64,000 nucleotides of DNA, from assembly GCF_949987535.1 (NCBI RefSeq), contig NC_080066.1:91283600-91347599 (forward strand). The letters are read 5' to 3'. Position 1 is the stretch's first letter. The number at the start of each line of letters is the position of its first letter. Of this stretch, positions 15,637-43,502 are shown one piece after another. A program made the translations under genes and the position numbers. The notes under the pieces are model-generated. The model searched no databases. It saw only the letters and a program-made list of their open reading frames with translations, and was not told where the DNA came from. The stretch is from Balaenoptera acutorostrata. Taxonomy: Eukaryota > Chordata > Mammalia > Artiodactyla > Balaenopteridae.

Positions 15637-17520
15637 GACTTCAGGAGAGAAGATGGCGGAAGAGTAAGACGCGGAGATCACCTTCCTTCCCACAGATAGA
15701 GTAGAAATACAGCTACACGTGGAACTGCTCCTACAGAACACCCACTGAACGCTGGCAGAAAAGGTCAGACCTCCCAAAAGGCAAGAAACTCCCCCCGTAC
15801 TTGGGTAGGGCAAAAGAAAAAAGAAATAACAGAGACAAAGGAATAGGGACGGGACCTACACCAGTGGGAGGGAGCCTTGAAGGAGGAAAGGTTTCTACGC
15901 ACTAGGAAGCCCCTTCGCGGGCAGAGACTGTGGGTGGCAGAGAGGGGGAGCTTCGGAGCCCGGAGGAGAGCGCAGCCACAGGGGTGCGGAGGGCAAAGCG
16001 GAGAGATTCCCGCACAGAGGATCGGCGCCGAGCAGCACTCACCAGCCCGAGAGGCTTGTCTGCTTACCCGCCGGGGCGGGCGGGGCTGGGAGCTGAGGCT
16101 CGCGCTTCCATCAGATCGCAGGGAGAGGACTGGGGTTGGCGGCGTGAACACACCCTAAAGGGGTTAGTGCACAACAGCTAGCCCGGAGGGAGTCCGGGAA
16201 AAAGTCTGCAGCTGCCGAAGAAGCAAGAGTCTTTTTCTTGCCTCTTTGTTTCACGGCGCGCAAGGAGAGGGGATTCAGAGCACCACCTAAACGAACTCCA
16301 GAGACGGGCGCGAGCCGCGGCTATCAGCGTGGACCCCAGAGACGGGCATGAGACGCTACGGCTGCTGCTGCCGCCACCAAAAAGCCTGTGTGCGAGCACA
16401 GGTCACTATCCACACCTCCCCTCCTGGGAGCCTGTGCAGCCCGCCACTGCCAGGGTCCTGTGATCCGGGGACAACTTTCCCAGGAGAACGCATGGCGTGC
16501 CTCAGTCTGGTGCAATGACACGCTGGCCTCTGCCGCCGCAGGCTCAACCCGCCTCCTCCGTACCCCTCCCTCCCCACGGCCTGAGCGAGCCAGAACCCCC
16601 AAAGCAGCTGCTCCTTTAACCCCGTTCTGTCTGGGTGGGGAAGAGACGCCCTCAGGCGACCTACACGCAGAGGCGGGTCCAAATCCAAAGCTGAACCCTG
16701 GGAGCTGTGCGAACAAAGAAGAGAAAGGGAAATCTCTCCCAGCAGCCTCAGAAGCAGCGGATTGAAACTCCACAAACAACTTGATGTGCCTGCATCTGTT
16801 GAATACCTGAATAGACAACGAATCATCCCAAATTCAGGAGTTAGACTTTGGGAGCAGGATATATTAATTTTTTCCCTTTTCCTTTTTTTGTGAGTGTATA
16901 TGTATATGCTTCTGGGTGAGATTTTGTCTGTATAGCTTTGCTTTATAATAGCTTTATTTTACTTCACTATATTATAGCCTCTTTCTTTCTTTCTTTATAT
17001 TTTTTCTCCCTTTTACTCTGAGCCGTGTGGATAAAAGGTTCTTGGTGCTCCAGCCAGGCATCAGGGCCATCCCTCTGAGGTTGGAGAGCCAACTTCAGGA
17101 CACTGGTCCACAAGAGACCTCCCAGCTCCACGTAATACCAAACGGCAAAAATCTCTCAGAGATCTCCATCTCAACATCAAGACCCAGCTTCACTCAATGA
17201 CCAGCAAGCTACAGCGCTGGACACCCTATGTCAAACAACTAGCAAGACAGGAACACAGCCCCATCCATTAACAGAGAGGTTGCCTAAAATCATAATAAGG
17301 CCACAGACACCCCAAAATACACCACCAGACGTGGACGTGCCCACCAGAAAGACAAGATCAAGCCTCATGCACCAGAACTCAGGCACTAGTTCCCTCCACC
17401 AGGAAGCCTACACAACCCACTGAACCAACCTTAGCCACTGGGGACAGATACCAAAAACAACGGGAACTACGAACCTGCAGCCTGTGAAAAGGAGACCCCA
17501 AACACAGTAAGATAAGCAAA

Positions 17521-18414
17521 ATGAGATGACAGGAAAACACACAGCAGATGAAGGAGCAGGGTCAAAACACACCAGACCTAACAAATGAAAAGGAAATAGG
17601 TAGTCTACCTGAAAAAGAATTCAGAATAATGATAGTAAGGATGATCCAAAATCTTGGAAATAGAATAGACAAAATGCAAGAAACATTTAACAAGGACGTA
17701 GAAGAACTAAAGAGGAACCAAGCAATGATGAAAAACACAATAAATGAAATTAAAAATACTCTAGATGGGATCAATAGCAGAATAACTGAGGCAGAAGAAA
17801 GGATAAGTGACCTGGAAGATAAAATGGTGGAAATAACTACTGCAGAGCAGGATAAAGAAAAAAGAATGAAAAGAACTGAGGACAGTCTCAGAGACCTCTG
17901 CGACAACATTAAATGCACCAACATTCGAATTATAGGGGTCCCAGAAGAAGAAGAGAAAAAGAAAGGGACTGAGAAAATATTTGAAGAGATTATAGTTGAA
18001 AACTTCCCTAATATGGGAAAGGAAATAGTTAATCAAGTCCTGGAAGCACAGAGAGTTGCATACAGGATAAATCCAAGGACAAACATGCCAAGACACATAT
18101 TAATCAAACTGTCAAAAATTAAATATAAATAAAACATATTAAAAGCAGCAAGGGAAAAACAACAAATAACACACAAGGGAATCCCCATAACGTTAATATC
18201 TGATCTTTCAGCAGAAACTCTGCAAGACAGAAGGGAGTGGCAGGATATACTTAAAGTGATGAAGGAGAAAAACCTACAGCCAAGATTACTCTACCCAGCA
18301 AGGATCTCATTCAGATGTGATGGAGAAGTTAAAACCTTTACAGACAAGCAAGAGCTGAGAGAGTTCAGCACCACCAAACCAGCTTTACAACAAATGCTAA
18401 AGGAACTTCTCTAG
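17521..18414 (+). pseudogene. L1 ORF1, disabled copy in L1-2
   Basis: The same 894-base span as the intact ORF1 of L1-1. Codon 3 is TGA where L1-1 has CGA, a typical CpG-decay change, and a second stop (AAGGAA read as AAATAA) falls at 18130-18132. An ATG at 17548 could open a 194-codon product holding the coiled coil and most of the RRM but lacking the C-terminal domain. Confidence 0.9.
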
Positions 18415-18472
18415 GCAAGAAACACAAGAGAAGGAAAACACCTACGATAACAAACCCAAAACATTTAAGAAA

Positions 18473-21400
18473 ATGGGAATAGGAACATACATATTGATAA
18501 TTACCTTGAATGTAAATGGATTAAATGCTCCCACCAAAAGACACAGGCTGGCTGAATGGATACAAAAACAAGACCCATATATATGCTGTCTACAAGAGAC
18601 CCACTTCAGACCTAGAGACACATACAGACTGAAAATGAGGGGATGGAAAAAGATATTCCATGCAAATGGAAATCAAAAGAAAGCTGGAGTAGCAATTCTC
18701 ATATCAGCCAAAATAGACTTTAAAATAAAGACTATTACAGGAGACAAAGAAGGACACTATATAATGATCAAGGGATCGATCCAAGAGGAAGGTATAACAA
18801 TTGTAAATATTTATGCACCCAACATAGGAGCACCTCAATACATAAGGCAAATACTAACAGCCATAAAAGGGGAAATCGACAGCAACACAATCATAGTAGG
18901 GGACTTTAACACCCCACTTTCACCAATGGACAGATCATCCAAAATGAAAATAAATAAGGAAACGCAAGCTTTAAATGATACATTGAACAAGATGGACTTA
19001 ATTGATATTTATAGGACATTCCACCCCAAAACAACAGAATACACATTTTTCTCAAGTGCTCATGGAACATTCTCCAGGATAGATCATATCTTGGGTCACA
19101 AATCAAGCCTTGGTAAATTTAAGAAAATTGAAATCGTATCAAGTATCTTTTCCAACCACAACGCTATGAGACTAGATATCAATTACAGGAAAAGATCTGT
19201 AAAAAAATACAAACACATGGAGGCTACACAATACACTACTTAATAATGAAGTGATCACTGAAGAAATCAAAGGGGAAATCAAAAATACCTAGAAACAAAT
19301 GACAATGGAGACACCACGACCCAAAACCTATGGGATGCAGCAAAAGCAGTGCTAAGAGGGAAGTTTATAGCAATACAAGCCTACCTCAAGAAACAGGAAA
19401 CATCTCGAATAAACAACCTAACCTTGCACCTAAAGCAATTAGAGAAAGAAGAACAAAAAAACCCCAAAGCTAGCAGAAGGAAAGAAATCATAATGATCAG
19501 GTCAGAAATAAATGAAAAAGAAATGAAGGAAACAATAGCAAAAATCAATGAAACTAAAAGCTGGTTCTTTGAGAAGATAAACAAAATTGATAAACCATTA
19601 GCCAGACTCATCAAGAGAAAAAGGGAGAAGACTCAAATCAATAGAATTAGAAATGAAAAAGGAGAAGTAACCACTGCTACTGCAGAAATACAAAAGATCA
19701 TGAGAGATTACTACAAGCAACTCTATGCCAATAAAATGGACAACCTGGAAGAAATGGACAGATTCTTAGAAATGCACAACCTGCCGAGACTGAACCAGGA
19801 AGAAATAGAAAATATGAACAGACCAATCACAAGCACTGAAATTGAAACTGTGATTAAAAACCTTCCAACAAACAAAAGCCCAGGACCAGATGGCTTCACA
19901 GGTGAATTCTATCAAACATTTAGAGAAGAGCTAACACCTATTCTTCTCAAACTCTTCCAATATATTGCAGAGGGAGGAACACTCCCAAACTCATTCTACG
20001 AGGCCACCATCACCCTGATACCAAAACTAGACAAAGATATCACAAAGAAAGAAAACTACAGGCCAATATCGCTGATGAACATAGATGCAAAAATCCTCAA
20101 CAAAATACTAGCAAACAGAATCCAACAGCACATTAAAAGGATCATCACCATGATCAAGTGGGGTTTATCCCAGGAATGCAAGGATTCTTCAATATACGCA
20201 AATCAATCAATGTGATACACCATATTAACAAATTGAAGGAGAAAAACCATATGATCATCTCAATAGATGCAGAGAAAGCTTTCGACAAAATTCAACACCC
20301 ATTTATGATAAAAGCCCTTCAGAAAGTAGGCATAGAGGGAACTTTCCTCAACATAATAAAGGCCATATATGACAAACCCACAGCCAACATTGTCCTCAAT
20401 GGTGAAAAACTGAAACCATTTCCACTAAGATCAGGAACAAGACAAGGTTGCCCACTCTCACTACTTTTATTCAACATAGTTTTGGAAGTGTTAGCCACAG
20501 CAATCAGAGAAGAAAAAGAAATAAAAGGAATCCAAATTGGAAAAGAAAAAGTAAAGCTGTCACTGTTTGCAGATGACATGATACTATATGTAGAGAATCC
20601 TAAAGATGCTACCAGAAAACTCCTAGAGCTAATCAATGAATTTGGTAAAGTAGCAGGATACAAAATTAATGCACAGAAATCTCTTGCATTTCTATACACT
20701 AATGACGAAAAATCTGAAAGTGAAATTAAGAAAACACTCCCGTTTACCATTGCAACAAAAAGAATTAAATATCTAGGAATAAACCTACCTAAGGAGACAA
20801 AAGACCAGTATGCAGAAAATTATAAGACACTGATGAAAGAAATTAAAGATGTTACAAATAGATGGAGAGATATACCATGTTCTTGGATTGGAAGAATCAG
20901 CATTCTGAAAATGACTCTACTACCCAAAGCAATCTACAGATTCAATGCAATCCCTATCAAACTACCACTGGCATTTTTCACAGAACTAGAACAAAAAATT
21001 TCACAGTTTGTATGGAAACACAAAAGACCCTCAATAGCCAAAGCAATCTTGAGAACGAAAAATGGAGCTGGGGGAATCAGACTCCCTGACTTCAGACTAT
21101 ATTTCAAAGCTACAGTAATCAAGACAGTTTGGTACTGGCACAAAAAAGAAATATAGATCAATGGAACGGGATAGAAAGCCCAGAGATAAACCCACACACA
21201 TATGGTCACCTTATCTTTGATAAAGGAGGCAAGCATATATAGTGGAGAAAAGACAGCCTCTTCAATAAGTGGTGCTGGGAAAATTGGACAGATACATGTA
21301 TAAGTATGAAATTACAACACTCCCTGACACCATGCACAAAAATAAACTCAAAATGTATTAAAGTCCTAAGTGTAAGGGCAGACACTATCAAACTCTTAGA

Positions 21401-22289
21401 GGAAAACATAGGCAGAACACTCTATGACATACATCACAGCAAGATTCTTTTTGACCCAGCTCCTAGAGAAATGGAAATAAGAACACAAATAAACAAATGG
21501 GACCTAATGAAACTTAAAAGCTCTTTCACAGCAAAGGAAACCATAAACAAGACCAAAAGACAACCCTCAGAATGGGAGAAAATATTTGCAAATGAAGCAA
21601 AAGACAAAGGATTAATCTCTAAGATTTACAAGCAGCTCATGCAGCTCAATAACAAAAAAATGAACAACCCAATCCAAAAATGGGCAGAAGACCTAAATAG
21701 ACATTTCTCCAAAGAAGATATACAGATTGCCAACAGACACATGAAAGAATGCTCAACATCATTAATCATTAGAGAAATGCAAATCAAAACTACAATGAGA
21801 TATCATCTCACACCGGTCAGAATGGCCATCATCAAAAAATCTAGAAACAATAAATGCTGCAGAGGGTGTGGAGGAAAGGGAACACTCTTGCACTGTTGGT
21901 GGGAATGTAAATTGATACAGCCACTATGGAGAACAGTATGGAGGTTCCTTAAAAAACTACAAATAGAAGTACTATACGATCCAGCAATCCCACTGCTGGG
22001 CATATACCCTGAGAAAACCATAGTTCAAAAAGAGTCATGTACCAAAATGTTCATTGCAGCTCTATTTACAATAGCCAGGACATGGAAGCAACCTAAATGT
22101 CCATCGACAGATGAATGGATAAAGAAGATGTGGCACATATATACAATGGAATATTACTCAGCCATAAAAAGAAATGAAATGGAGGTATTTGTAATGAGGT
22201 GGATGGAGTTAGAGTCTGTCATACAGAGTGAAGTAAGTCAGAAAGAGAAAAACAAATACAGTATGCTAACACATATATATGGAATCTAA
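18473..22289 (+). pseudogene. L1 ORF2, disabled copy in L1-2
   Basis: Endonuclease text is open from 18473 to 19243. One extra A in the run near 19203 breaks the frame, and a lost A near 19286 restores it. The frame then runs 19349-20215 and changes near 20147 (atcatcaccatg where L1-1 has atcatacaccatg). The catalytic FADD is present in the frame at 20158-21156. A further indel near 21147 leads to the last frame, 21306-22289, with the cysteine motif. The small indels, mostly in homopolymers, look like neutral decay. Confidence 0.9.
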
Positions 22290-22660
22290 GGGGGAAAAAA
22301 GGCCATGAAGAACCTAGGGGCAAGACAGGAATAAAGACACAGACCTACTAGAGAATGGACTTGAGGATATAGGGAGGGGGAGGGGTGAGATGTGACAGGG
22401 TGAGAGAGTGTCATGGACATATATACACTACCAAAAGTAAAATAGATAGCTAGTGGGAAGCAGCCGCATAGCACTGGGAGATCAGCTCAGTGCTTTGTGA
22501 CCACCTAGAGGGGTGGGATGGGGAGGGTGGGAGGGAGGAAGATGCAAGAGGGAAGAGATATGGGAACATATGTATATGTGTAACTGATTCACTTTGTTAT
22601 AAAGGAGAAACTAACACACCATTGTAAAGCAATTATACTTCAATAAAGATGTTTTTAAAA

Positions 22661-23170
22661 AAAATCATATGATCATCTTCATATCTCCAGCAAAGGATAT
22701 GGCAAAATTCAACATTTCTTTTCATAATAAAGGACAGGGACTTCTGTGGCAGTCCAGTGGTTGGGAATTCACGATTCCACTGCAGGTGGTGTGGGTTCAA
22801 TCCCTGGTCAGGGAACTAGGGACCCCATGCTGTGCGGTGCGGCCTGAATGAATGAATGAATGAATAAATAAATATAAAGGGCATATATGACAAAAGCAGA
22901 CTTAACATCATACTTAATGGTGAAAAGCTGAAAGCATCTCCTCTAAGAACAGGAACGAGACAAGGATGCCTACTCTCACCACTTTTATTCAACACAGGAT
23001 TAATAGTTCTAGCCACAGCTGAATACAAAAATAAAAATACAAAATAGGATCTAACTTGTGAAGGAAGTAAAACTGTCACTCTTTGCAGATGACATGATAA
23101 TATGTAGAGAAAACCCTAAAGATCTCACCAACAAATTATTAGCATAAATAAACTCAGTAAATTTGGAGTA
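22661..23170 (+). mobile_element. Host L1, segment 2 (ORF2 reverse transcriptase)
   Basis: Continues the host L1 directly after the L1-2 target-site duplication. It holds the [12 protein letters not shown] block at about 22955 and the catalytic region around 23080. It is interrupted by a short SINE at 22737-22872 and then by the minus-strand L1 at about 23171; the reading resumes at 32201. Confidence 0.8.
22737..22872 (+). mobile_element. Short tRNA-derived SINE
   Basis: Begins gggacttctgtggcagtcca, has the B-box-like gggttcaatccctggtca and ends in a (gaat)n/(aaat)n tail. About 135 bases and older looking than the long CHR SINEs. Weak flanking repeats (ataaagg) are visible. Confidence 0.8.
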
Positions 23171-24138
23171 TACACAATATTTTCTTTTTTTTTTAAATTA
23201 ACTTGTTTGGAGTATAGTTGCTTTACAATGTTGTGTTAGTTTCTACTATACAGCAAAGTGAAGCACCTATACGTATACATATATCCCCTTTTTTTGGATT
23301 TCCTTCCCATTTAGGTCACCACAGAGCACTGAGTAGAGTTCCCTGTGCTATACAGTAGGTTCTCAGTAGTTATCTATTTTATACATTGTATCAATAGTGT
23401 TTATTTGTCAATCCCAATCTCCCAATTTCTCCCATCCCCCATTTTCCCCCGTTGGTGTCCATACGTTTGTTCTCTACATCTGTGTCTCTATTTCTGTTTT
23501 GCAAATTAGATCTATACCATTCTTCTAGATTCCACATATATTTGTTGATATACAATATTTGTTTTTCTCTTTCTGACTTACTTCACTCTGTATGACTCTC
23601 TCTAGGTCCATCTATGTCTCTACAAATAACCCAATTTCGTTCCTTTTTATAGTTAAGTAATACTCCATTGTATATATGTACCACATCTTCTTTATCCATT
23701 ACTCTGTTGATGGACATTTAGGTTGCTTCCATATCCTGGCTACTGTAAATAGTGTCACAGTGAATATTGGGGTGCATATGTCTTTTGGAATTATGGTTTT
23801 CTCTGGATATATGCCCAGTAGTGGGATTGCTGTATCATAATGTAGCTCTATTCTTAGTTTTTTAAGGAAACTCCATACTGTTCTCCATAGTGGCTGTATC
23901 AATTTACATTCCCACCAACAGTGCAAGAGTGTTCCCTTTCCTCCACACCCTCTCCAGCATTTATTGTTTGTAGATTTGTTGATGATGGCCATTCTGACCG
24001 GTGTGAGGTGATACCTCATTGTAGTTTTGATTTGCATTTCCCTAATAATTAATGGTGTTGAGCATCTTTCCATGTGCCTGTTGGTCATCTGTATGTCTTC
24101 TTTGGAAAAATGCTTATTTAGGTCTTCCACCCATTTTT
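23171..24138 (-). mobile_element. Minus-strand L1, 3' portion, left of the retrocopy
   Basis: Reads as an L1 3' end on the minus strand: A-rich tail (T run at 23179-23195), 3' UTR, then the ORF2 C-terminus including the frame 23699-24130 with [18 protein letters not shown]. It stops at the retrocopy's duplicated target site, and the same L1 continues at 32003-32200, so the retrocopy split it. The outer 5' end is truncated at about 32200. Confidence 0.9.
24126..24138. repeat. Target-site duplication of the chimeric retrocopy, left copy
   Basis: tccacccattttt, identical to 31990-32002. On the minus (sense) strand it reads aaaaatgggtgga, beginning with A residues as expected for L1 endonuclease nicking. 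Confidence 0.9.
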
Positions 24139-24149
24139 TTTGTTTGTTT

Positions 24150-26045
24150 TACAAAATGTGTTAGTTTACTAACTCTACTTTTGTCATACATTGGCAACCT
24201 CTTTAATATCTAGAGACTAGATATTATAAAATTGGGGCCCACTGGTCCAGTATATACAAAATATATACAGTAAAGTTAAACAAAATGCATGTAACATATA
24301 AAGCAATGGATAAGTTGAAATGTTCTAGTACCTGCTAGCAAAACATCTTTTGCCATCTTCCCTCCCACCTCCCTAAACCCAATGAACAAGCACAGAGTAT
24401 ACTGTTCAGAGAAGGGGTTTAACAATTGCATTTCCAAAGACAGTATTTCCCATCAGTTTTTAAAAGCTATTTACAGGAAGCATTATTCTACTAAAACTAC
24501 TTTTAAATACATCAAGCACTTCTAAACATCTAGAAAGAGTAGATATTTTATATAAGAACTTACTTGTCCACTATGTACACAGTACTGTTAAATAAAATTT
24601 CACACATGTAACAATGGTTATAATCTGAGGTATCTTCTAAATATGACCATTTTGGCCTGAACCATTTCCTCCCTCACTTCCTTCTCTCCACCACCAATCC
24701 AGTGGACAAGTACATGCATGTGTAATGCTTAGAGGTGGTTGAACAAATTCATATCTAAAAGTCATTTACAGAAGACAAGCTTTCCTATGAATTTCAATAA
24801 AGTGTACAAAATGTGCTAATTTTACTACTTTGTCATACACTGGCAACCCCTTTAACATCTAGAGACTAGATGTTGCAAAACTAGGACTCAATTTGTCCAT
24901 TATATACACTATATACACAGCAAAACAAAATGAACATACAAAAAATGGTTTTGTCCGAAAATGTCCAGATATGAACACACTAGCATATTACCTTTTGCAA
25001 TTCTTTCCCTCCCTCCTCCAAACCACTGAACAAGTATAGACAATAGTATACTGCTCAGAGAGGTGTTTTAACATTTAACATTCCCAAAGACAGTACTTCC
25101 TATGAATTTTAGCAAAAAAATATTTACAAAGTGATATTTTACTACCTCTACATTTAACATACGTTGGGCACTTCTAAACATCTAGATGGACTAGATGTTT
25201 CAAATAAAGACTTAATTTGTCCACTATATACAGAGCAGTACTGAATGAACTGCACACATGTAACAGTTATAATCTGAAAGTGTCTTCAAAATACCAGCAT
25301 TCTAGCCATTCTAAGATCAACCCCCTGCTCTCTCTCCCCCCTCCACCAACCCAGAGGGCTAAAATGCTCAAATTTTCAGAAGACAATCTTTCCTAGAAAT
25401 TTTAACACAAAATGTACAAAATCTATTATTTACTAACCCTATTTTTGTCATACACTGGCAACCTCTTTAACATCTAGAAAGACTAGGTGTTGTAAATTAG
25501 GACTCATTTGTCCATTATATACACTATAAACACAGCAAAGTGAAACAAAATGCGGGAACATAAAAAAGACAATGGTTAATCTTGCCTCACTATAAACACA
25601 CTGGCACAGAGCTCTTTGCACTTCCTTCTCCTCCCCCCGACCTTGAACTAGTGCACAAACAAACACAGTGCATACTGCGTACTGTTCAAAAAGGTGGTTT
25701 GACCACCCCTCCCCCCCAAAACAACATTTCATACGAATTTTAACAAAAAGATATTTACAAAATGTCTTTTTACTACCTCTACTTTGAACATATATCAGGC
25801 ACTTCAGAACATCTGGAAAGACTAGATATTATTCTTTCTAATAATATATCTAAGACTAGATATATCTTCTAACTGTGACCAGTCTGGCATAGAACCTTCT
25901 TTTCTTCCTCCTCAACGTCTGCCATTCCATGTCCTCTAACCCACTGAACAAACGTGGACCTCTTTGGCTCCTGATGTCGCCTCTAGAGGTGGTCAAACAG
26001 CTCCATTTCACAGTCATTTCCAGAAGACATTTCTTTTCTTCCGGG
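24150..26045 (-). repeat. Six tandem ~320-bp monomers (3'-UTR-like array)
   Basis: Anchor text such as ggcaacctctttaacatcta or gcacttctaaacatctaga recurs at about 24190, 24511, 24841, 25161, 25451 and 25791, giving spacings of 321, 330, 320, 290 and 340 bases. Alternate monomers are more alike, suggesting a ~640-bp dimer that expanded. Each monomer also carries a purine-rich block, a ttgttcagtgggtt-like phrase and a tatatagtgtatataatgg-like phrase on the minus strand. It is not L1 or SINE and I do not recognise the source gene. Its position before the A tail makes a repetitive 3' UTR the simplest reading. Confidence 0.8.
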
Positions 26046-26286
26046 CCCGTTAAGGCCTTTGTCTGGCGTCTCGTCCAACTGGGACAGAGAGGTCACCTCA
26101 GGTCCCGGATCTGCGCGGGTTCCAAAGCCTAAGGGTGGCTGAGCTGGCGTCCACGTAGACCCCCCTTCCTGGGCCCTCGAGGCTCTAACGGCCTTCCGCG
26201 GCGTTCCAGTGGCCGCCATTCTTCTCTCCCTGCCACGCCCGATGCCCAAAAGCACCACGTCCTTGGTGTCCTGCCGGAGGCTTCGC
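26046..26286 (-). other. CpG-rich module downstream of the LRRC37 exon
   Basis: About 240 bases with roughly twenty CpGs, in an otherwise CpG-poor AT-rich region. On the minus strand it contains agaatggcggcc, a start-codon/YY1-like context of the type found at housekeeping-gene first exons. It joins LRRC37 directly after the residues AEKL, where the next LRR exon would be expected. One frame runs 117 codons from 26336 to 25983 through it, but that frame is out of phase with LRRC37. I cannot identify it; it may be an exon of a third gene. Confidence 0.5.
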
Positions 26287-29200
26287 CTAACCCAGCTTCT
26301 CAGCCCAGCGGTATGCCTGCCATATACTTTCATCAATGTAAGAAATAGAGTTTCCTTGGAAATTTATGATGGTGAAGGTGCCGCTGTAGTCGTTAGGCTC
26401 TGGCTCAGGCACTCTGTGGAGCTTCTGCTTTGGGCTGAGACCAGCACACGACAGTGTCTCATTTTTGCAGGTACAGAGCTCACATATGCTGATGTTTGTG
26501 GTGGCATTCTGTTCTGGCTGCTTCTTTTCTGGGGTATATTTTACACCAGGAAGACCTGTGGGTACTGAATACTGAGTCGAAGGAAAAAGAACTGTCTCAG
26601 ATGGCCTTGGTTGATGAAATATGTTAACTCCCAGATCCACAGGTGGAACTGTGACTTGAGTCAGGTTTCGTTGTGCAAGTGTCACCTCAGGGTGTTTTGG
26701 AGGGGGAGCTGTAGTCTGCTGCAGGGCTTTACAATGTCCAGCTTCCATAGTGGGTTCTGCAGTTGTGGTTTGCTCTAAGTCCACATGATGAACTGTGACG
26801 CTGGATGATGTTGAATACTGAACATAATCCTGACATGGAGTTGGAACTGTCACCTCCTGCTGGAATGGAGATTGAACTGCAACCTCCTGAGGTGCCTCTG
26901 AAGGCTGAGTTGGGGTCTCCTGCATGATTGGAGAAGGTACAGTCTCCATATTGGATTCTCCAGTAACGGTAAGTTCCACATCCATAGGTTGAATTGTGAC
27001 TTGAGTCAGGTTTGGCTGTGCAAGTGTCACCTCAGGGTGTTTTGGAGGGGGAGCTGTAGTCTGCTGCAGGGCTGTAGAATGTTCAGACTCTGTAGTAGGT
27101 TCTGGAGTTGTGGTAAGCTCCAGGTCGAAAGGTTTAACTGTGATACTGGGTGATGTTGGATGCTCAGCATGATCCTGATCTGGTGCTGGAACTGTCACCT
27201 CAGGATACAATGGAGACTGAGCTACAACTTCCTTAATGAGCTCTGGAGGCTGAGCTTGGGTCTGCTGCATGGTTGGAGAAGGTTCAACCTCCATACTGGA
27301 TTCCAGAGTTAATGTAAGTTCCAGGTCCAAAGGTTGAACTGTGACCTCAGTCAAGGTTGGATGCTGAGCCTGAACTTGCTCTGGATTTGGAAATGTCACA
27401 TCGGGGTATGTTGGAGGAACTGCAGTCTGCTGCAGGGCTGCAGAATGTTCAGCCTCCGTTGTAGGTTCTGGAGCTGTGGGAAGCCCCTGGTCCAAAGGTT
27501 TAACTGTGACACTGGGCACGTTTGAATGCTGAGCTTGATCCTGTCCTAGTGTTGGAACTGTCATCTCATAGTGCACTGGAGTTTGTGCTACAACCTCCTT
27601 AGGTGGTGCTGGAGGCTGAGATGGGTCCTCCTGCTGGGCTGGAGAAGGTTCTGTCTCTTTAAGGGGTTCCAGAGGTAGGTCTGGGAACTCCTGTTGGACT
27701 GGAGAAGATTCCATATTCTCAGGGGGCTGTAGAAGCTGAGGAAGGGTCCCTGAGGAAGGGACTGGAAATGGTTCCACCTTTGCAGGGAGCTCTGATGACT
27801 GAGCCTGAAGCTCCTGCTGTGTGGGAGAAGGTACCACCTCCTTAGGGGGCTCAGGAGATATAGCTGAGCCCCCCTGGGGAACTGGAGACTGAGCTGGGGC
27901 CTCCTCCTGGACTAAAGAAAGCTCTATCCCTCCAGGGGGATCTGGAGTCTGAGTAGGGTCCTCCTGCTGCACTGGAGGATGTTCAACTGCTTTAGTGGGC
28001 TCTAGAGTTAAGACAACCGCCAGATCCACAGGTTTAACTGTGATATTAGGCAACACTGGATGTTCAACTTCACCTGGACCTAGAGGTGAGAATGTCACTT
28101 CATTATGTACTGAAGGTTGAGCTGCACCATCTGTAGAGGCCCCTGGAGGCTGAGTTGGGTGCTGATGCTGGACTGGAGTAGGTCCAACCCACTCAGTGGG
28201 CTTTGCATGCTGAGCTGAGCTCTCCTGCTGGCTTGGAGAAGGTTCAGTTTCCTCAGGAAGCTCTTCAGATTGAGTTGGGGCTCCCTGCTGAACTGGGGAA
28301 GGTTCAACATTTTCAGAGGGGGTTGGATGCTGATCCGAAACCTCTTGCTGGACTGACAAAGGTTCCATCTGCTCAGAGGACACTGTAGACTGAGCCAAGG
28401 TTTCTTGTTGGGGTGGAGAAGTTTCAACCTCATTAGTGAACGCTGGAGTTACGATAAGTGCAAGATCCACAGGTTTAACAGTGACATCGGGCCGCTGCAG
28501 AAGCTGAGCTTGATCCTGACCTAGATGAGAAACTGTTGTCACATGATGCTCTGGAGAGAAAACTACAGTCACATTAGAGAGCTCTGGAGACTGAGTTGGA
28601 GAGGATTCAACCTCACCAGGAGACTCTGGATGCTGAGCTGTGGCGTCCTGCTGAGGTGGAGAAGGTACAACCTCAGGAGCCTGTGGATGCTGATCTGGAG
28701 TCTCCTGCTGGGTTGTGGCAGGTATAACTTCTTCTCCAGGATGCTCTAGATACTGAGCTGGGGTCTCCTCTTGTACTGAAGGTTTATTATGTGTACCGGC
28801 TTCTGGAGATTGGGCTGGAGCCTCCTGTTGAACTGGCAAAGGTTCAACCTCCTCAGCTGGCTGTGAAGGCAGTGTGGGGGCCTCATGCTGGGTTGTAGAA
28901 AATTCTGCATTAGTAAGGGGCACTGAGGGCTGATCTGAAGGCTTGTGCTGAGTTGGAGAAGGTCCCACCTCTGGAGTGGGTTCTTTTGTTATGGTAAGCT
29001 CCACATCTGCAGGTTTGACAGCAACACTGGATAAGTTTGAATGCTGAGCATGATGGTGACTTGGAGGTGAAACTGTCATTTCATGATGCTCTGGAAGTTG
29101 AGCTGGCTGTTCCTGTTGAGTTGGAGAAGGTTCCACCTCCCCTGAAGAAGGCTCTGGAGGCTGAGCTTGTTGCTCCTGCAGGGTTGCAGAAGGTTCTGTC

Positions 29201-29322
29201 GATCTCCGCTGGAGACAGAGCTGGGATCTCCTGCTGGGTTGGAGAAGATTCTGCCTCATTAGGGGGCTCTGGAGACTGAGCTGAGGCTTCCTCCTGGGTT
29301 GCAGAAGTTTCAGATTCTCCAA
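26287..29322 (-). CDS. Open segment of the LRRC37 retrocopy, repeats plus LRR cap (1011 codons)
   Basis: A 3-kb uninterrupted frame, the longest non-LINE frame in the window. The first ~40 codons are out of family phase. After about 29200 it carries the LRRC37 text: PEVTVPTP-like blocks, nine VTVKP-DLxLT modules, many TQQE repeats, then the cysteine-rich cap ICELCTCKNETLSC, FTIINFQGNSISYID and WAEKL, followed by G and a stop supplied by the next module. In a normal gene the next exons would supply the leucine-rich repeats. The lack of stops over this length suggests a young insertion or a source recently under constraint. It has no promoter that I can see. Confidence 0.55.
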   Translation of the reverse strand: MENLKLLQPRRKPQLSLQSPLMRQNLLQPSRRSQLCLQRRSTEPSATLQEQQAQPPEPSSGEVEPSPTQQEQPAQLPEHHEMTVSPPSHHHAQHSNLSSVAVKPADVELTITKEPTPEVGPSPTQHKPSDQPSVPLTNAEFSTTQHEAPTLPSQPAEEVEPLPVQQEAPAQSPEAGTHNKPSVQEETPAQYLEHPGEEVIPATTQQETPDQHPQAPEVVPSPPQQDATAQHPESPGEVESSPTQSPELSNVTVVFSPEHHVTTVSHLGQDQAQLLQRPDVTVKPVDLALIVTPAFTNEVETSPPQQETLAQSTVSSEQMEPLSVQQEVSDQHPTPSENVEPSPVQQGAPTQSEELPEETEPSPSQQESSAQHAKPTEWVGPTPVQHQHPTQPPGASTDGAAQPSVHNEVTFSPLGPGEVEHPVLPNITVKPVDLAVVLTLEPTKAVEHPPVQQEDPTQTPDPPGGIELSLVQEEAPAQSPVPQGGSAISPEPPKEVVPSPTQQELQAQSSELPAKVEPFPVPSSGTLPQLLQPPENMESSPVQQEFPDLPLEPLKETEPSPAQQEDPSQPPAPPKEVVAQTPVHYEMTVPTLGQDQAQHSNVPSVTVKPLDQGLPTAPEPTTEAEHSAALQQTAVPPTYPDVTFPNPEQVQAQHPTLTEVTVQPLDLELTLTLESSMEVEPSPTMQQTQAQPPELIKEVVAQSPLYPEVTVPAPDQDHAEHPTSPSITVKPFDLELTTTPEPTTESEHSTALQQTTAPPPKHPEVTLAQPNLTQVTIQPMDVELTVTGESNMETVPSPIMQETPTQPSEAPQEVAVQSPFQQEVTVPTPCQDYVQYSTSSSVTVHHVDLEQTTTAEPTMEAGHCKALQQTTAPPPKHPEVTLAQRNLTQVTVPPVDLGVNIFHQPRPSETVLFPSTQYSVPTGLPGVKYTPEKKQPEQNATTNISICELCTCKNETLSCAGLSPKQKLHRVPEPEPNDYSGTFTIINFQGNSISYIDESIWQAYRWAEKLG

Positions 29323-30490
29323 AAGACTCTGAAAGCTGAGCTGGGGTCTCCTGCTGGGTTGCTGGTTTCACCTCCTCAGGAGGCTCTGTAGGCTCAGAAG
29401 GCTGAGTCAGTTGTTCCTGTTCACTTGGAGAAGGCTCAGCTTCCACAAGAGGTTCTGGAGGCTGAGCTGTGGTCTCCTGCTGGGTTGGAGAAGGTTCAAC
29501 TTCCCCAGGAGGCTCAGAAGGCGGAGCTGGTTGCTCCTGCTCACTTGAAGGCTCAACCTCTCCAGGAGGCTCTGGAGGCTTAGCTGAGGTCTCTTGTTGG
29601 GTTGGAGAAGATTCTATGTCCTCAGGATGCTCAAGAGGTGGAGCCAGGGCCTGCTGCTGAGCTGTAGGAAATTCAGCTTCCGTAGTGGGCTCTGGAGTGA
29701 TGGTAAGATCGAAATCCAGAGGTTGAAGTGTAACACTGGGCAAGTTTGAATGAGCGTGATGCTGAACGCCAGGTAGAGATGCTACCTCATCACTCACTGG
29801 AATTTGAAGTACATACTCAGTAGGGAACCCTGGAGCCTGAGTTGGGGCCTCCTGATGGAGTAGAGAAGGTTCAACCTCCTCAGGGCGCTCTGGAGGCTGA
29901 GATGGGGCTTCCTGATGGAGTAGAGAAGGTTCAACCTCCTCGGGGCTCTCTGGAGGCTGAGATGGGGTCTCCTTCTGGACTGGAGAAGGTCCAACCTCTT
30001 TAGTGACCTGTGGAGTTATGGTAAGTGCCAGATCCAGAGGTTTAACAGTGACATTGTACAAGTTTGACTGCTGTGCTTCATTTGCCCCATGATGTGCTAC
30101 TGGTTGAACTACAACCTCCTTAAGTGTCTCCAAAGGCTGGGCTAGGGCCTCCTGAGGACTTGAAGCTTCTAGTTCCTCAGGGGCCTCTGAAGGCTGAGAT
30201 GGAGCCTCCTGCTGAAGTGGAGGTGGTTCTACCTCTTCAGTGGGCTCTGGATGCTGAGCCTGGGCCTCTGCCTGGGGTGAAAAAGATTCAACCTCCTCAG
30301 GGATTTGTGGATGCTGAGCAGGGGCCTCTTGCCGGGGTAAAGATTCAGCCTCCTCAGTGAGCTCTGGATGATGAGTTTGGGCCTCCTGCTGGGATGGAGA
30401 AATTTCAGCTTCCTCAGGGGGCTCTGGAGGTTCATCTGGGCTCCCCAAAAAATCCCTAAGTAGGCTCTCCTCAGGATAAAAGGCATCCAT
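29081..30490 (-). CDS. Open segment of the LRRC37 retrocopy, N-terminal repeats (469 codons)
   Basis: Open from ATG 30490 to 29081. Its true LRRC37 homology ends near 29200, where a frameshift moves the family text into the next frame. It begins MDAFYPEESLLRDFLGSPDE, which matches a conserved LRRC37 stretch just before the repeats, and contains about fifteen acidic proline/glutamine-rich repeats and two modules of the VTVKPLDLALTIT type (about 29710 and 30030). There is no signal peptide and no LRR. The initiating ATG is internal to the family protein, so translation from it is speculative. The frame may be only an undecayed remnant. Confidence 0.5.
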   Translation of the reverse strand: MDAFYPEESLLRDFLGSPDEPPEPPEEAEISPSQQEAQTHHPELTEEAESLPRQEAPAQHPQIPEEVESFSPQAEAQAQHPEPTEEVEPPPLQQEAPSQPSEAPEELEASSPQEALAQPLETLKEVVVQPVAHHGANEAQQSNLYNVTVKPLDLALTITPQVTKEVGPSPVQKETPSQPPESPEEVEPSLLHQEAPSQPPERPEEVEPSLLHQEAPTQAPGFPTEYVLQIPVSDEVASLPGVQHHAHSNLPSVTLQPLDFDLTITPEPTTEAEFPTAQQQALAPPLEHPEDIESSPTQQETSAKPPEPPGEVEPSSEQEQPAPPSEPPGEVEPSPTQQETTAQPPEPLVEAEPSPSEQEQLTQPSEPTEPPEEVKPATQQETPAQLSESFGESETSATQEEASAQSPEPPNEAESSPTQQEIPALSPAEIDRTFCNPAGATSSASRAFFRGGGTFSNSTGTASSTSRAS

Positions 30491-31495
30491 CCATACTGGG
30501 ATCTAAATAATCACCCTGCAACTGTTGTTCTAGACCCTGAGTGTTTTTTTCAAATTGGCCTATAGTTCTAACAACAACTTTGGCAAGCCATCGATGCTGA
30601 ACTAGATCTTTCTTCAGGTTTGGGGGGTGAAACAATAAACTTCATTGGTTTTGAACTCTTACTACCTAGAGGCGGAACAAGTATTTCAAATGATGAGTGA
30701 CCTTCAGCCTGATCTAGACCTATGATTTTAGTCTTACTTTGGTGTCGAGAAGGCAGAACCAAGGCCTGATTCTGATTCCAGTCTAGCACTGGAACTGCCT
30801 CTGGGAGCTTCTGATGTTGGGTTTGCTTGTTATTTCAGATCCTGATGTGGAACAGCAAACTGATCTGGCCCTGTAGGCAGCTCTCCAACCGAATCCAAAT
30901 CAGTATGGAACCTCAGTCTCAGTCAACTCTTGAATTAAATCCTGTAGTTCCTCTTCGGTTCTAGCATCTGTGACCTCTTCACAGGGTCTATATGCCACAG
31001 CTATTTTACCACTTTCTAAAACCACAATCAGCAGTTACTGGAATGCATCTGTCATAGCCTTCTGAATAACAAGCTTCTGGGTTACCTTCCTTTTCATAAG
31101 GAATGATAATGACCCTTCCTCCAACTTATCCAAAGGTTCCTCAGCCATGCCAACTCCAGGACTCCTGCACTCGTGGGAGGGCAACACCTCTTGATGATCC
31201 TTTTTGACCACCCATTGAAACCAAAGTAGTAATTTGCCAATTCTTGGCATCTGGAGCTGTTTAGGGCAAGCGTATTATGTTGAACCGCCTTATGTCTGGT
31301 GCCGAGACGAACCTTCACTGGAGATGTCTGAAAAAGCTGCTTCTGGTCACATGCCTTTTGGGCTCTGTGGGCATCCCTTGCTGAATAAAACTTGATGATG
31401 GCATAGAACCCAGGACCGGCCACTGCTGCGTTTGGGAAGACTCGGACCGAATACAGAAGGCCAACAAACTGGGAGAAGACTGTGAACAGAGAATG

Positions 31496-31870
31496 CTGTA
31501 GGGTGGTCCCATGCTAAGTAAGTGCAGGAAATTTCATGCCCAGGAAACCAAACCGCCCATTCCCTTATATTCCCCCAGCCGTTTGCCACAGGCAACTGTG
31601 GTGAGCCTGCAACTCCAAACACTTCTCATTTCATGAACAAGTTTCCCTCTGAAATCCTAAACTTCGAGAAGCATTAGGAGGCAATGCCGGCTGTTAGAAA
31701 CGATCTCTCAAAAATCTATGGGGGCGAGCTGACTGCTCAGGTCGGCTCTAGAACTAAGATTCCTCTCAGCGGAGACCACAGGCAGATGAGGTGCTGAAGC
31801 AGTACCCTGGGGCGCCCAGTTACTGGGGCGCAGGGTGGCTTCCTCCACCCCTCCCTCCACCCCAGCTCAC
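31496..31870 (-). other. Retained RDM1 intron (375 bases, GT-AG)
   Basis: On the minus strand it starts gtgagctgggg and ends ccaccctacag. It lies exactly between RDM1 codons TTG CAA and CAT TCT, and carries no RDM1 coding text. It shows that the reverse-transcribed RNA was incompletely spliced. Confidence 0.85.
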
Positions 31871-31966
31871 TTGCAAGGCCTCGGCCGTGCGGCCAGAGCT
31901 CAGCTCCCACACCAGCAAGGTTTTGTCACCCCTAATGGGAACCGCAAAAGGTACCAACTCCACCAT
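31871..31966 (-). pseudogene. RDM1: RDM1 exon 1 within the retrocopy
   Basis: Exactly 32 open codons from ATG to CAA, ending at a retained splice donor, caa followed by gtgagc. The 24 bases upstream of the ATG to the target-site duplication are all that remains of a leader, consistent with an essentially full-length 5' end. Confidence 0.88.
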
Positions 31967-31989
31967 CCTACCATCACCTCGCGTGAGCC

Positions 31990-32002
31990 TCCACCCATTT
32001 TT
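31990..32002. repeat. Target-site duplication of the chimeric retrocopy, right copy
   Basis: tccacccattttt, identical to 24126-24138. The minus-strand L1 resumes at 32003 with no loss. Confidence 0.9.
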
Positions 32003-32200
32003 CGATTGGGTTGTTTGTTTTTTTAATATTGAGCTACATGAGCTGTTTCTATATTTTGGAGATTAATCCTTTGTCAGTTGCTTCATTTGCAAATATTTTC
32101 TCCCATTGTGAGTGTTGTCTTTTCATCTTGTTTATGGTTTCCTTTTCTGTGCAAAACTTTTAAGTTTAATTAGATCCCATTTGTTAATTTTTGTTTTCAT
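32003..32200 (-). mobile_element. Minus-strand L1, 5'-truncated portion, right of the retrocopy
   Basis: Continues the ORF2 C-terminal text of 23171-24138 (gattgggttgtttgttttt, then ttcatttgcaaatattttct, with ATTAGATCCCATTTG-type text near 32172). It ends near 32200, where plus-strand host-L1 sequence takes over. Confidence 0.88.
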
Positions 32201-34110
32201 TTTAATTGAAATATATGCAATTAATATACAGAAATCTGTTATTTTTCTCAGCACTAATAACAAACTGTCAGAGAAATTAAGAAAAAAAATTTACAAATGT
32301 ACCAAAAATAATAAAATACCTGGGAATAAATTTAACCATGGAGGTGAAAGATTTATATATTAAAAATTATAAGACATTGATGAAGGAAATTGAAGATGAT
32401 GCAAACAAATGAAAAGATATCCCATGCTCTTGGATCAGAAGAATTAATCTTTTTAAAATAGCCCTATTACTCAAAGCAACCTACAGATTTAAAGCAATCC
32501 CTATCAAAATACCCACAACATTGTTCACACACAGAACAAATAATCCCCAAATAAATATAAAACCACAAAATACCCACAGTACCAAAGCAATCCTGAGGGA
32601 AAAAAAAGACCAAAGCTGGAGATAGCATGTTCCCTGACTACAAAGCTACAATAATCACAAAAACAGACACATAGATGAAGGGAACAGAATAGAGAGCCCA
32701 GAAAGGATCTCACACACTTATGGTGAGTAAGTCTACCACCAAGGAGGCAAGAATATACAATGAAGAAAAGACAGTTTCTTCAATAAGTTGTGTTGGGAAA
32801 AGTGGAGGGCTACATGTAAAATAAGGAATTTAGAACATTTCCTCACACCAGACACAAAATTCAAAATGAATTAAGGACCTAAAGGTAATACACCAAACCA
32901 TAAAACTCATAGGAGAGAACGTAGGCAGAACATTCTGTGACATAAATTGTAGCAATATTTTTGGAATCTGGCCTCTATGGCAAAAGAAATAAAAGCAAAA
33001 ATAAACAGGTGGAAGCTAAATAAAGTTTAGGAGCTTTTGCACAGCCATGAAAACCAACAACAAAATCAAAATTCAAAGTGCAAAGTGTAAGAAAATATTT
33101 GCAAATGATATGATGGACAAAAGGTTAATATCAAAAATATATAAATGGTTCATACAACTCAATATCACACACACAAAAAATGAACAAACAACACAATCAA
33201 TAATGGTCAGGAGACATGAATAGACATCTTTCCAAAGAAGATACAGATGGCTAAAAGGCAGATGAAAAGGTGCTCAACATCACTAATTATTAGAGAAGTT
33301 CAATTCAAAGCAACAATGAGATATCAACCTCCACCTGTCAAAATAGCTCTCATCAAAATGTCTACAAATACCAAATTTTGGAGAGCATGTGGAGAAAAGT
33401 GAACCCTTGTACACTGTGGGTAGGATTGTAAATTGTTGCAGGCACTATGGAAAATAGGATGGAGCTTTCTCAAAAAAGTAAAAGTAGAACTACCATATGA
33501 TCCATCAATAACTCTCCTGTGTACCTATCTAGGAAAAAAATGAAAACACTAATTCAAAAAGATACATAAACCCCAATGTGCATAACAGCACTATTGACAA
33601 TGGCCAAGGTAAGAAAGCAACCAAAATGCCCATGAACAGACAAACGGATAAAGAAGCTATGGTATATATGTACAGTGGAATATTACACAGCCATAAAAAG
33701 AATGAAATTCTGCCATTTGCAGCATCGTGGATGGACCTGGAGAATATTATGCTTAATGAAGTAAGTCAGAGAAAGACAAATACTGTGTGATATTATTTAT
33801 ATGTGGAATCTAAAAATAATACAAATGAATGTATATGCAAAACAGAAACAGACTCACAGATATATAAACAAACTAGTGGTTACCATTTGGGACAGGTAAG
33901 GGGGGAGGGACAAATTAGGGGTATGGGCTTAAGAGGTACAAACTACTATGTATAAAATAGATAAGCAACAAAGATATATTGTATAGGACGGAATTATAGC
34001 CATTCTCTTGTAAAATCATTTAATCAAGTGTAATCTGTAAAAAATCCCAGATCACCTGAAACTGATATAATACTATAAATAAATTATAATTTTAAAAAAT
34101 AAATAAAATA
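32201..34110 (+). mobile_element. Host L1, segment 3 (ORF2 C-terminal half and 3' UTR)
   Basis: Resumes the ORF2 reading left at 23170 (IQKSV-type text at about 32225, then a KYLGINL-type stretch near 32320), runs through the ORF2 C-terminus at 33800 and a 3' UTR to an A-rich end near 34110. It is heavily decayed, so only short frames remain. Confidence 0.85.
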
Positions 34111-36985: not shown

Positions 36986-38949
36986 GATCTCAGGGAAGAT
37001 GGCAGAAGAGTAAGATGCAGAGATCACCTTCTTCCCCACAGTTACATCAGAAATACATCTACACATGGAACTGCTCTTATAGAACACCCACTGAACGCTG
37101 GCAGAAGACCTCAGACCTCCCAAAAGGCAAGAAACTCCCCACGTACCTGGGTAGGACAAAAGAAAAAAAAACAGAGACAAAAGAATAGGGACGGGACCTG
37201 CACCAGTGGGAGGAAGCTGTGAAGGAGGAAAGGTTTCCACACACTAGGAAGCCCCTTCGCGGGCGGAGACTGCGGGTGGCGGAGGGGGTAAGCTTCGGAG
37301 CCGCGGAGGAGAGCACGGCAACAAGGGTGTGGAGGGCAAAGCAGAGAGATTCCTGCACAGAGGATCGGTGCTGACCAGCACTCACCAGCCCAGGAGGCTT
37401 GTCTGTTCCCCCGCCGGGGCGGGGGCTGGGAGCTGAGGCTCGGGCATCGATTGGATCCCAGGGAGAGGGCTGGGATTGGCTGCGTGAACACAGCCCGAAG
37501 GGGCTAGTACGCCATGGCTAGCTGGGAGGGAGTCCGGGAAAAAGTCTGGAGCTGCCGAAGAGACAAGAGACATTTTCTTGCCTCTTTGTTTCCTGGTGCG
37601 CGAGGAGAGGGGATTAAGAGTGCCGCTTAAAGGAGCTCCAGAGACGGGCGCGAGCCGCGGCTATCAGCGCGGACCCCAGAGACGGGCATGAGATGCTAAG
37701 GCTGCTGCTGCTGCCACCAAGAAGCCTGTGTGCAAGCACAGGTCACTATCCACACCGCCCCTCCTGGGAGCCTGTGCAGCATGCCACTGCCAGGGTCCCA
37801 TAATCCAGGGACAACTTCCCCGAGAGAACGCACGGCACACCTCAGGCTGGTGCAATGTCACGCCGGCCTCTGCCGCAGCAGGCTTGCCCCGCATCTGTAC
37901 CCCTCCCTCCCCCCGGCCTGAGCGAGCCAGGGCCCCCGAATCAGCTGCTCCTTTAACCCCGTCCTGTCTGAGCAAAGAACAGACGCCTCCAGTCGACCTA
38001 CATGCAAAGGCGGGGCCAAATCCAAAGCTGAACCCAAGGAGCTGTGCGAACAAAGAAGAGAAAGGGAAATTTCTCCCAGCAGCCTCAGAAGCAGCGGATT
38101 AAAGCTCCACAATCAACTTGATGTACCCTGCATCTGTGGAATACCTGAATAGACAATGAATCATCCCAAATTGAGGAGGTGGACGTTGGGAGCAAGATAT
38201 ATTATTTTTTCCCCTTTTCCTCTTTTTATGAGTGTGTATGTGTATGCTTCTGTGTGAGATTTTGTCTGTATAGCTTTGTTTTCACCATTTTTCCTAGGAT
38301 TCTTTCCGTCGGGGTCTTTTTTTTGGATTTTTTTGGTTTTTTTTACTTAAAATTTTTTTCTTAATTATTTTTTTATTTTTTATTTTAATAACTTTATTAT
38401 ATTTTATTTTATCCTCTTTATTTCTTTCTGTTTTTTCTCCCTTTTATTCTGAGCCATGTGGATGAAAGGCTCTTGGTGCTCCAGCCAGGCATCAGGGCTG
38501 TGCCTCTGAGGTGGGAGAGCCAACTTCAGAACACTGGTCCACAAGAGACCTCCCAGCTCCACGTAATACCAAACAGCAAAGATCTCCCAGAATCTCCATC
38601 TCAACACCAAGACCCAGCTTTGCTCAACGACCAGCAAGCTACAGTGCTGGACACCCTATGCCAAACAACTAGCAAGAAAGGAACACACCCCATCCATTAG
38701 CAGAGAGGCTGCCTAAAATCATAATAAGGCCACAGACACCCCAAAACACACCACCAGACATGGACCTGCCCACCAGAAAGACAAGATCCAGCATCATCCA
38801 CCAGAACACAGGCACTAGTCCCCTCCACCAGGAAGCCTACACAACCCACTAAACCAACCTTAGCCACTGGGGAAAAACACCAAAAACAACGGGAACTACG
38901 AACCTGCAGCTAGCGAAAAGGAGACCCCAAACACCGTAAGTTAAGCAAA

Positions 38950-39843
38950 ATGAGAAGATATAAAAACACACAGCAGATGAAGGAGCAAGGTAAAAACACA
39001 CCAGAGCTAACAAATGAAGAGGAAATAGGCAGTCTACCTGAAAAAGAATTCAGAATAATGATAGTAAGGATGATCCAAAATCTTGGAAATAGAATAGAAA
39101 AAATGCAAGAAACATTTAACAAGGACCTAAAAGAACTAAAGAGGAACCAAGCAACGATGAAAAACACAATAAATGAAATTAAAAATACTCTAGATGGGAT
39201 CAATAGCAGAATAACTGAGGCAGAAGAAAGGATAAGTGACCTGGAAGATAAAATGGTGGAAATAACTACTGCAGAGCAGGATAAAGAAAAAAGAATGAAA
39301 AGAACTGAGGACAGTCTCAGAGACCTCTGCGACAACATTAAACGCACCAACATTCGAATTATAGGGGTCCCAGAAGAAGAAGAGAAAAAGAAAGGGACTG
39401 AGAAAATATTTGAAGAGATTATAGTTGAAAACTTCCCTAATATGGGAAAGGAAATAGTTAATCAAGTCCTGGAAGCACAGAGAGTCCCATACAGGATAAA
39501 TCCAAGGAGAAACACGCCAAGACACATATTAATCAAACTACCAAAAATTAAATATAAAGAAAACATATTAAAAGCAGCAAGGGAAAAACAACAAATAACA
39601 CACAAAGGAATCCGCATAAGGTTAACAGCTGAACTTTCAGCAGGAATTCTGCAAGCCACAAGGGAGTGGCAGGACATACTTAAAGTGATGAAGGAGAAAA
39701 ACCTACAACCAAGATGACTCTACCCAGCAAGGATCTCATTCAGATTTGATGGAGAAATTAAAACCTTTACAGACAAGCAAAAGCTGAGAGAGTTCAGCAC
39801 CACCAAACCAGCTTTACAACAAATGCTAAAGGAACTTCTCTAG
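38950..39843 (+). pseudogene. L1 ORF1 in L1-3, one premature stop
   Basis: Same start codon and 894-base span as L1-1. It is open for 255 codons, then TGA at 39715-39717 (AGATTACTC changed to AGATGACTC) removes the last ~42 residues of the C-terminal domain. Otherwise coiled coil and RRM are complete. Confidence 0.92.
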
Positions 39844-39901
39844 GCAAGAAACACAAGAGAAGGAAAACACCTACAATAACAAACCCAAAACATTTAAGAA
39901 A

Positions 39902-42900: not shown

Positions 42901-43502
42901 GAAGACCTAAATAGACATTTTTCAAAGAAGATATACAGATTGCCAACAAATACATGAAAGAATGTTCAACATCATTAATCATTAGAGAAATGCAAATCAA
43001 AACTACAACGAGATATCACCTCACACCGGTCATAATGGCCATCATCAAAAAATCTCGAAACAGTAAATGCTGGAGAGGGTGTGGAGAAAAGGGAACATTC
43101 TTGTACTGTTGGTGGGAATGTAAATTGATATAGCCACTATGGAGAACAGTATGGAAGTTCCTTAAAAAACTAAAAATGGAACTACCGTATGACCCAGCAA
43201 TCCCACTACTGGGCATATACCCTGAGAAAACCATAATTCAAAAAGAGTCATGTACCAAAATGTTCATTGCAGCTCTATTTACAATAGCCAGGACATGGAA
43301 GCAACCTAAGTGTCCATCATTAGATGAATGGATAAAGAAGATGTGGCACATATATACAATGGAATATTACTCAGCCATAAAAAGAAACGAAATTGAGTTA
43401 TTTGTAGTGAGGTAGATGGAGTTAGAGTGTGTCATACAGAGTGAAGTAAGTCAGAAAGAGAAAAACAAATACAGTATTCTAACCCATATATATGGAATCT
43501 AA
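39902..43502 (+). pseudogene. L1 ORF2 in L1-3, multiply broken
   Basis: Endonuclease is open at 39902-40903. Compared with L1-1, about 210 bases between endonuclease and RT are lost at about 40971-40983. RT text follows in frames 40994-41437 and 41380-42093 (FADD near 41780), then 42118-42417, 42520-42957 and 43176-43415. A small loss near 41590 removes a few residues of the YDKPTAN block. The element cannot be autonomous. Confidence 0.92.

Follow-up and report, generated by a model that had tools for sequence, protein, structure and literature searches.

In a 64,000-nucleotide stretch of the genome of Balaenoptera acutorostrata (assembly GCF_949987535.1, contig NC_080066.1, positions 91,283,600 to 91,347,599; hereafter the window), a single insertion of 7.85 kb, at positions 24139-31989 and in sense on the minus strand, lies within an L1 and joins parts of RDM1, of an LRRC37 gene and of the long noncoding RNA NORAD (LINC00657) at splice sites. 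The simplest reading is a fused and spliced RNA, and the insert looks like the fossil of a fused germ-line RNA. We consider it probable, although well short of certain, that one retrocopied, spliced RDM1-LRRC37-NORAD RNA is preserved here and that its NORAD part came from a sense retrocopy near LRRC37 that has since been lost. The features are given below in the order of the sense strand, with a slash at each exon border and with handles such as C26 for the contigs; the numbering of the RDM1 exons is our own and follows their order of appearance.

32003-32202, minus strand: host L1, one side of the insert, from the L1 alignment
31990-32002, no strand assigned: target-site duplication bordering the insert at its 5′ end, identical 13-mer TCCACCCATTTTT
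31871-31989, minus strand: RDM1 exon 1 with the start of the 5′ untranslated region, aligned to C26:45978324-45979060, donor GCCTTGCAA/GTGAGC
31496-31870, minus strand: RDM1 intron 1, retained, collinear with genomic DNA
31313-31495, minus strand: RDM1 exon 2, genomic donor GTGAAG/GTGGGT
31190-31312, minus strand: RDM1 exon 3, genomic TCTTCAG/...ATCAAG/GTAAAC
31115-31189, minus strand: RDM1 exon 4, acceptor CTTCAG/AGG, genomic GCTTCAG/AGG...GGAAG/GTCTGT
31016-31114, minus strand: RDM1 exon 5, genomic GGATTTAG/...TTTTAG/GTAAGA
30930-31015, minus strand: RDM1 exon 6, donor ATTCAA/GTATGT read at C26:40.057 Mb, source acceptor unread
26366-30929, minus strand: 3′ part of LRRC37 exon 1, beginning at an internal acceptor, acceptor CCTCATCAG/GAGTTGACTG, donor ATCAT/GTAAGAATCG, family PF15779
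26294-26365, minus strand: LRRC37 exon 2, 72 nucleotides (nt), genomic TTCACAG/AAATTTCC...GAGAAGCT/GTGAGT
26038-26293, minus strand: NORAD-derived exon A, beginning 285 nt inside NORAD, source GCTGTAG/GGGTTAGG...CCCGGAAG/GTGAGC
24150-26037, minus strand: NORAD-derived exon B, Pumilio-motif repeat units, source ACCGTAG/AAAAGAAATG
24139-24149, minus strand: A-rich tail, no match in the NORAD source
24126-24138, no strand assigned: target-site duplication bordering the insert at its 3′ end, identical 13-mer
23520-24138, minus strand: host L1, other side of the insert, from the L1 alignment

The two 13-base copies of the target-site duplication are identical, and when the insert and one 13-mer are removed, the flanks close as one L1, a join spanned by the alignments of 7 further L1 stretches in the window and of 8 out of the 13 additional loci compared. 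The A-rich run that ends the sense strand is short and interrupted and adjoins the duplication, and the target, read by eye, is a T-rich cleavage site. Because of the duplication, the A-rich end and the cleavage site, the insert bears the marks of an L1-made retrocopy; the perfect 13-bp direct repeat, the A-rich end and the location inside an L1 had all been reported in a preliminary description of this DNA and are present. Relative to the source genes, introns are lost at 8 joints, all at exon borders, and one intron is retained. The parts might also have been brought together by at least two independent insertions or by a segmental duplication, and the dispersed LRRC37/RDM1 loci on C25, C5 and C3:79 do look unspliced: those on C25 and C5 continue into intron 1, and C3:79 and C26:36.66 have intron-like sequence in common. 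However, one pair of duplications encloses everything, the flanks close seamlessly, and the introns are missing exactly at splice sites; we regard such an assembly as highly improbable. The same 64-kb window contains long L1 copies that are approximately 87-96% alike (1161-8172, 15643-22664, 36992-43874 and 53239-58195), and a scan of the window found neither a tRNA nor any Rfam family that reaches its gathering score.

Four of the eight joints lie within RDM1; the others are the RDM1-LRRC37 joint, one within LRRC37, the LRRC37-NORAD joint and one within NORAD. Across several source loci (C26 at 45.97, 40.06 and 36.77 Mb, and C21), we could read 15 of the 16 splice-site sides in source DNA, every one of them canonical; the remaining side is the acceptor of RDM1 exon 6. 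A single insertion with parts joined at splice sites is what would be predicted for a retrocopied fusion RNA, and the earlier proposal that a fusion RNA was copied by L1 is supported by this one insertion and its three parts.

The frame at 31094-31513 of the RDM1 part matches the Pfam families DSRM_RDM1 (over 24 of 109 positions only), RRM_1 and Rad52_Rad22, all above their cut-offs, and a genome search with 30935-31990 as the query (40 of 61 candidates scored) yielded at least 52 matches. Exon 1, intron 1 and exon 2 were found as one genomic block, with 48 mismatches in 676 aligned bases relative to C26:45978324-45979060; therefore, the RNA that was copied still contained RDM1 intron 1. Exons 3, 4 and 5 match separate blocks with canonical borders at C26:45.97 Mb, and exon 6 has 10 matches in the genome, the window copy included. 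A copy of exon 6 that is 98% alike to the window lies off C26, at C23:60028849-60028940. The block of exon 1, intron 1 and exon 2 is also repeated in tandem beside LRRC37 with a period of approximately 5.6 kb, at C26:45.978-46.006 (6 copies) and 46.678-46.695 Mb (4 copies), further copies occur at 46.717 and 46.740 Mb of C26, and exon 1-2 blocks are also inverted at C26 loci other than 45.97 Mb.

The LRRC37 text of the window matches PF15779 (E = 5.4e-136 and 2.5e-40), and a genome search with this family (150 of 153 candidates scored) gave at least 92 matches. Among the matches listed are six loci on C26 (36.66, 36.77, 39.96, 40.06, 45.97 and 46.67 Mb) and, off C26, one locus each on C25, C5 and C3:79.04 in addition to the window. 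Apart from the window, 8 loci were examined for the end of LRRC37 exon 1, which was found at 7 of them, with no match in the examined part of C3:79.04; the borders of exon 2 were read at C26:36.77 Mb, and an identical GTGAGT donor is present at 40.07 Mb of C26. At all six C26 loci, RDM1 exon 6 precedes LRRC37 in the same orientation, 3.0-3.5 kb ahead of the first PF15779 match. The preliminary description had anticipated a parental locus with RDM1 exons ahead of LRRC37 on one strand, and such a locus is C26:45.97 Mb, where RDM1 exons 1-2, 3, 4, 5 and 6 precede LRRC37 in order. At C26:40.06 Mb, 2,606 nt separate the donor of RDM1 exon 6 from the internal LRRC37 acceptor. Because exon 6 lies just upstream of LRRC37 in the same orientation at six of six loci, the RDM1-LRRC37 fusion is explained by read-through splicing, and this step is a read-through of neighbouring genes; adjacent same-strand parents and intergenic splicing are also the features of co-retroposition of the PIPSL type.

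The earlier observation that RDM1 text is fused to LRRC37 first-exon text holds for both genes, with the addition that LRRC37 exon 2 and RDM1 intron 1 are included, and the joint that had been placed at 30931 exists and is set by the splice sites at 30929/30930. Read by hand, this joint preserves both frames. Because intron 1 is kept and the frame is left at exon 4 in the copied RNA, we do not claim a fusion protein. A single copy-number region on dog chromosome 9 is reported to contain RDM1, ARHGAP27 and LRRC37 members (PMC4053742). The loci at C25:22.28, C5:61.39 and C3:79.04 Mb have LRRC37 in sense, RDM1 exon 1-2 inverted downstream and intron-like sequence related to C26:36.66.

We identify the third part as NORAD. 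Its CpG-rich module and repetitive tail had been noted, without an identity, in the preliminary description, and they are parts of a single transcript family that is present in many copies in this genome (the tail query 24139-25100 gave 60 matches, and all 24 of 24 candidates were scored). A copy on C21, at C21:66.534-66.540 Mb, is approximately 5.19 kb long, compared with a NORAD transcript of approximately 5.3 kb, has the CpG-rich start, and bears neither an A tail nor a duplication (longest shared word 4), whereas duplications of 12-17 bp were found in five of the five other copies tested; this check took in C1, C6:91.96, C16, C23 and C27 and left out C22, C6:12.09 and C6:46.41. For these reasons, the C21 copy is taken as the source gene. 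AAR2, which we take to be the neighbour of NORAD at human 20q11.23, has its only locus (2 matches, 17 of 17 candidates scored) at C21:66693827-66698199, approximately 154 kb from this source, and on that assumption the synteny expected of NORAD is found on C21.

The motif TGTANATA occurs 10 times at 24139-26293 of the window against 0.27 expected from shuffles, and 18 times in the C21 source against 0.64, and it is absent from the RDM1/LRRC37 part. UGURUAUA occurs 7 times in the NORAD part of the window and 14 times in the C21 source, and human NORAD is reported to have 17 (PMC4947167). In the minimum-energy fold, a stem of at least 8 bp follows 6 of the 10 Pumilio sites of the window, with overlapping pairs counted twice. 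According to the published account, the NORAD repeat units are defined by Pumilio sites and stem-loops, and the Pumilio sites and following stems of the window agree with these units (PMC4947167). The 3′ module was also considered as an unknown protein gene, a candidate that we rejected: the frame from its CpG part has no NCBIfam family and matches the PDB only by chance (E 0.15), and a Pfam scan of 25983-26363 found no family.

The NORAD part of the window starts directly after GCTGTAG in the source, and a 344-nt stretch of the source with GT..AG ends (GTGAGC...ACCGTAG) is absent from it and kept in five of the five other retrocopies that cover the region. The window copy is thus spliced, and because it lacks this stretch it is NORAD-derived and not a plain NORAD retrocopy. 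Numerous processed pseudogenes of NORAD are reported in mammals (PMC4947167), and several in this genome have duplications; in contrast to these, the copy in the window begins 285 nt into NORAD, has been spliced and follows parts of other genes in a fusion. NORAD retrocopies that retain the full 5′ end are frequent here, with 5 seen. Four retrocopies (C1:81.82, C6:91.96, C23:59.00 and C27:22.85 Mb) have a common 5′ start and a target-site duplication each, and their identity to the C21 source is 98.7-100% by block and mostly at least 99.7%. To judge from these sequences, NORAD copying into this genome seems to be ongoing, or to have continued until very recently. The retrocopy at C27:22.85 Mb has a 17-bp duplication and no A tail and ends within the repeat array, where the C16, C23, C22 and window copies also end, at differing points. 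A SINE in one of the flanks examined is reminiscent of whales and ruminants.

At the LRRC37-NORAD joint (GAGAAGCT followed by GGGTTAGGCG), the donor of LRRC37 exon 2 is joined to a cryptic acceptor of NORAD. The three transcripts could also have been combined if the L1 reverse transcriptase had copied NORAD RNA and then switched to RDM1-LRRC37 RNA. Template jumping of this type is known for bipartite and tripartite chimeras of long interspersed elements (LINEs), and one G at the joint can be assigned to either side. However, the joint falls both at the donor of LRRC37 exon 2 and at an AG of NORAD, the NORAD piece begins inside the RNA and not at its 5′ end, and the NORAD intron is removed here and kept in the other covering copies. 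A joint at a donor and behind an AG, together with NORAD splicing in this copy alone, argues against chance or template jumping, for which joints unrelated to splice sites would be expected; we consider this explanation improbable. The tripartite LINE chimeras resemble the insert in combining three transcripts within a single insertion that has short direct repeats, and tripartite retroelements ascribed to template jumps are reported also in mammals (PMC2104539), but the joints in the window are splice joints.

How the NORAD part came to be joined is a question of cis- or trans-splicing. In the reading that we favour, transcription would have started at an RDM1 promoter, presumably in the germ line, and continued into the downstream LRRC37; RDM1 exon 6 would have been spliced to the internal acceptor in LRRC37 exon 1, and LRRC37 exon 2 to the cryptic acceptor inside a NORAD copy, whose internal donor and acceptor would also have been used. 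The RNA would then have been polyadenylated within the NORAD repeats and copied into another L1, probably by the L1 enzyme. The NORAD copy may have been a sense-oriented retrocopy within or downstream of an LRRC37 gene, one that is now gone from C26 or was never fixed. Because NORAD retrocopies are frequent here, a landing near LRRC37 is plausible, and cis-splicing to a retrocopy is favoured over trans-splicing; removal of the 344-nt stretch by splicing would be expected if the NORAD piece had come to serve as an internal exon downstream of LRRC37.

Several observations weigh against this reading. The NORAD search (tail query only) gave no match on C26, C25 or C5, so that the joint must be ascribed either to cis-splicing with a since-lost retrocopy or to trans-splicing. 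One of the 16 splice sides was not read, and RDM1 exon 4 of the window lacks 3 nt near its start, at its joint, relative to the genomic source. The non-CpG differences of the long segments agree at approximately 2.3-3.3%, which counts for one retrocopied RNA: 45/1650 (2.7%) for the NORAD tail and 21/914 (C25), 24/876 (C26:45.97) and 32/978 (C26:39.96) for the LRRC37 middle. The shorter segments, however, scatter to both sides, with 17/388 for the LRRC37 5′ part, 2/70 for LRRC37 exon 2, 30/611 for RDM1 exon 1, intron 1 and exon 2, 4/284 for RDM1 exons 3-5 and 10/202 for NORAD exon A. Because of this disagreement, the exact source copies are not pinned down, and with sources and rate uncertain we assign no date to the insertion. 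A comparison of cis- and trans-splicing by whether the NORAD part was already older when copied was dropped because the segment divergences scatter too much.

Alternatively, an RDM1-LRRC37 pre-mRNA may have been joined by trans-splicing to a separate NORAD RNA made from C21, and the product then copied. The NORAD source lies on C21 and RDM1/LRRC37 on C26, C26 gave no match to the NORAD tail query, the joint is donor-to-acceptor, and the same route is left open for chimeras of messenger RNA (mRNA) with L1 in which the source L1 is missing (PMC13174262). However, in human cells NORAD is reported to remain unspliced, with 94% of it in the cytoplasm (PMC4947167), and cis-splicing to a lost insertion requires no unusual step. 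We therefore regard this route as unlikely, although worth serious consideration, and we are slightly more doubtful of the full sequence of events in which an LRRC37 pre-mRNA was trans-spliced in the germ line to NORAD RNA from another chromosome before the chimera was copied into the genome. Because the NORAD source lies on a contig other than C26, the three parts do not all come from one duplicon; of the earlier suggestion of an ancestral linkage, what stands is that RDM1 and LRRC37 adjoin in this genome.

PIPSL (PIP5K1A-PSMD4) of hominoids is likewise a retrocopied read-through RNA of two adjacent genes (PMC2773790). The insert differs in having a third spliced partner, a long noncoding RNA encoded on another chromosome, so that the parts do not all derive from one locus. 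Co-retroposition of fused RNAs is reported to be very rare: PIPSL is given as the only human case, with one case for mouse and none for rhesus, rat, dog, cow, opossum, platypus or fruitfly (PMC2773790). The 5′ transduction chimeras of mRNA or long noncoding RNA with L1 are also similar; 17 are reported in hg38, the 5′ part ends at a splice donor in 6 of the 17, target-site duplications are present, and the source L1 is missing from the gene in the described human cases (PMC13174262). In those chimeras, however, L1 is the downstream partner; the insert has a NORAD copy in that position and a fusion of two genes upstream. The portions of the open-licence literature consulted do not describe the fusion where LRRC37 is named with RDM1 or NORAD with LRRC37, and those on co-retroposed or chimeric retrogenes contain no spliced three-gene mammalian case with a long noncoding RNA.

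The insert records at single-base resolution how three genes were spliced together, an event that might escape ordinary gene annotation. Both RDM1-LRRC37 read-through in present-day testis and the trapping of upstream exons by NORAD or its retrocopies can be tested now. If trans-splicing were the true explanation, NORAD would carry a cryptic acceptor and a donor able to capture other transcripts, and its frequent retrocopies would be mobile exon traps with their own 3′ ends.

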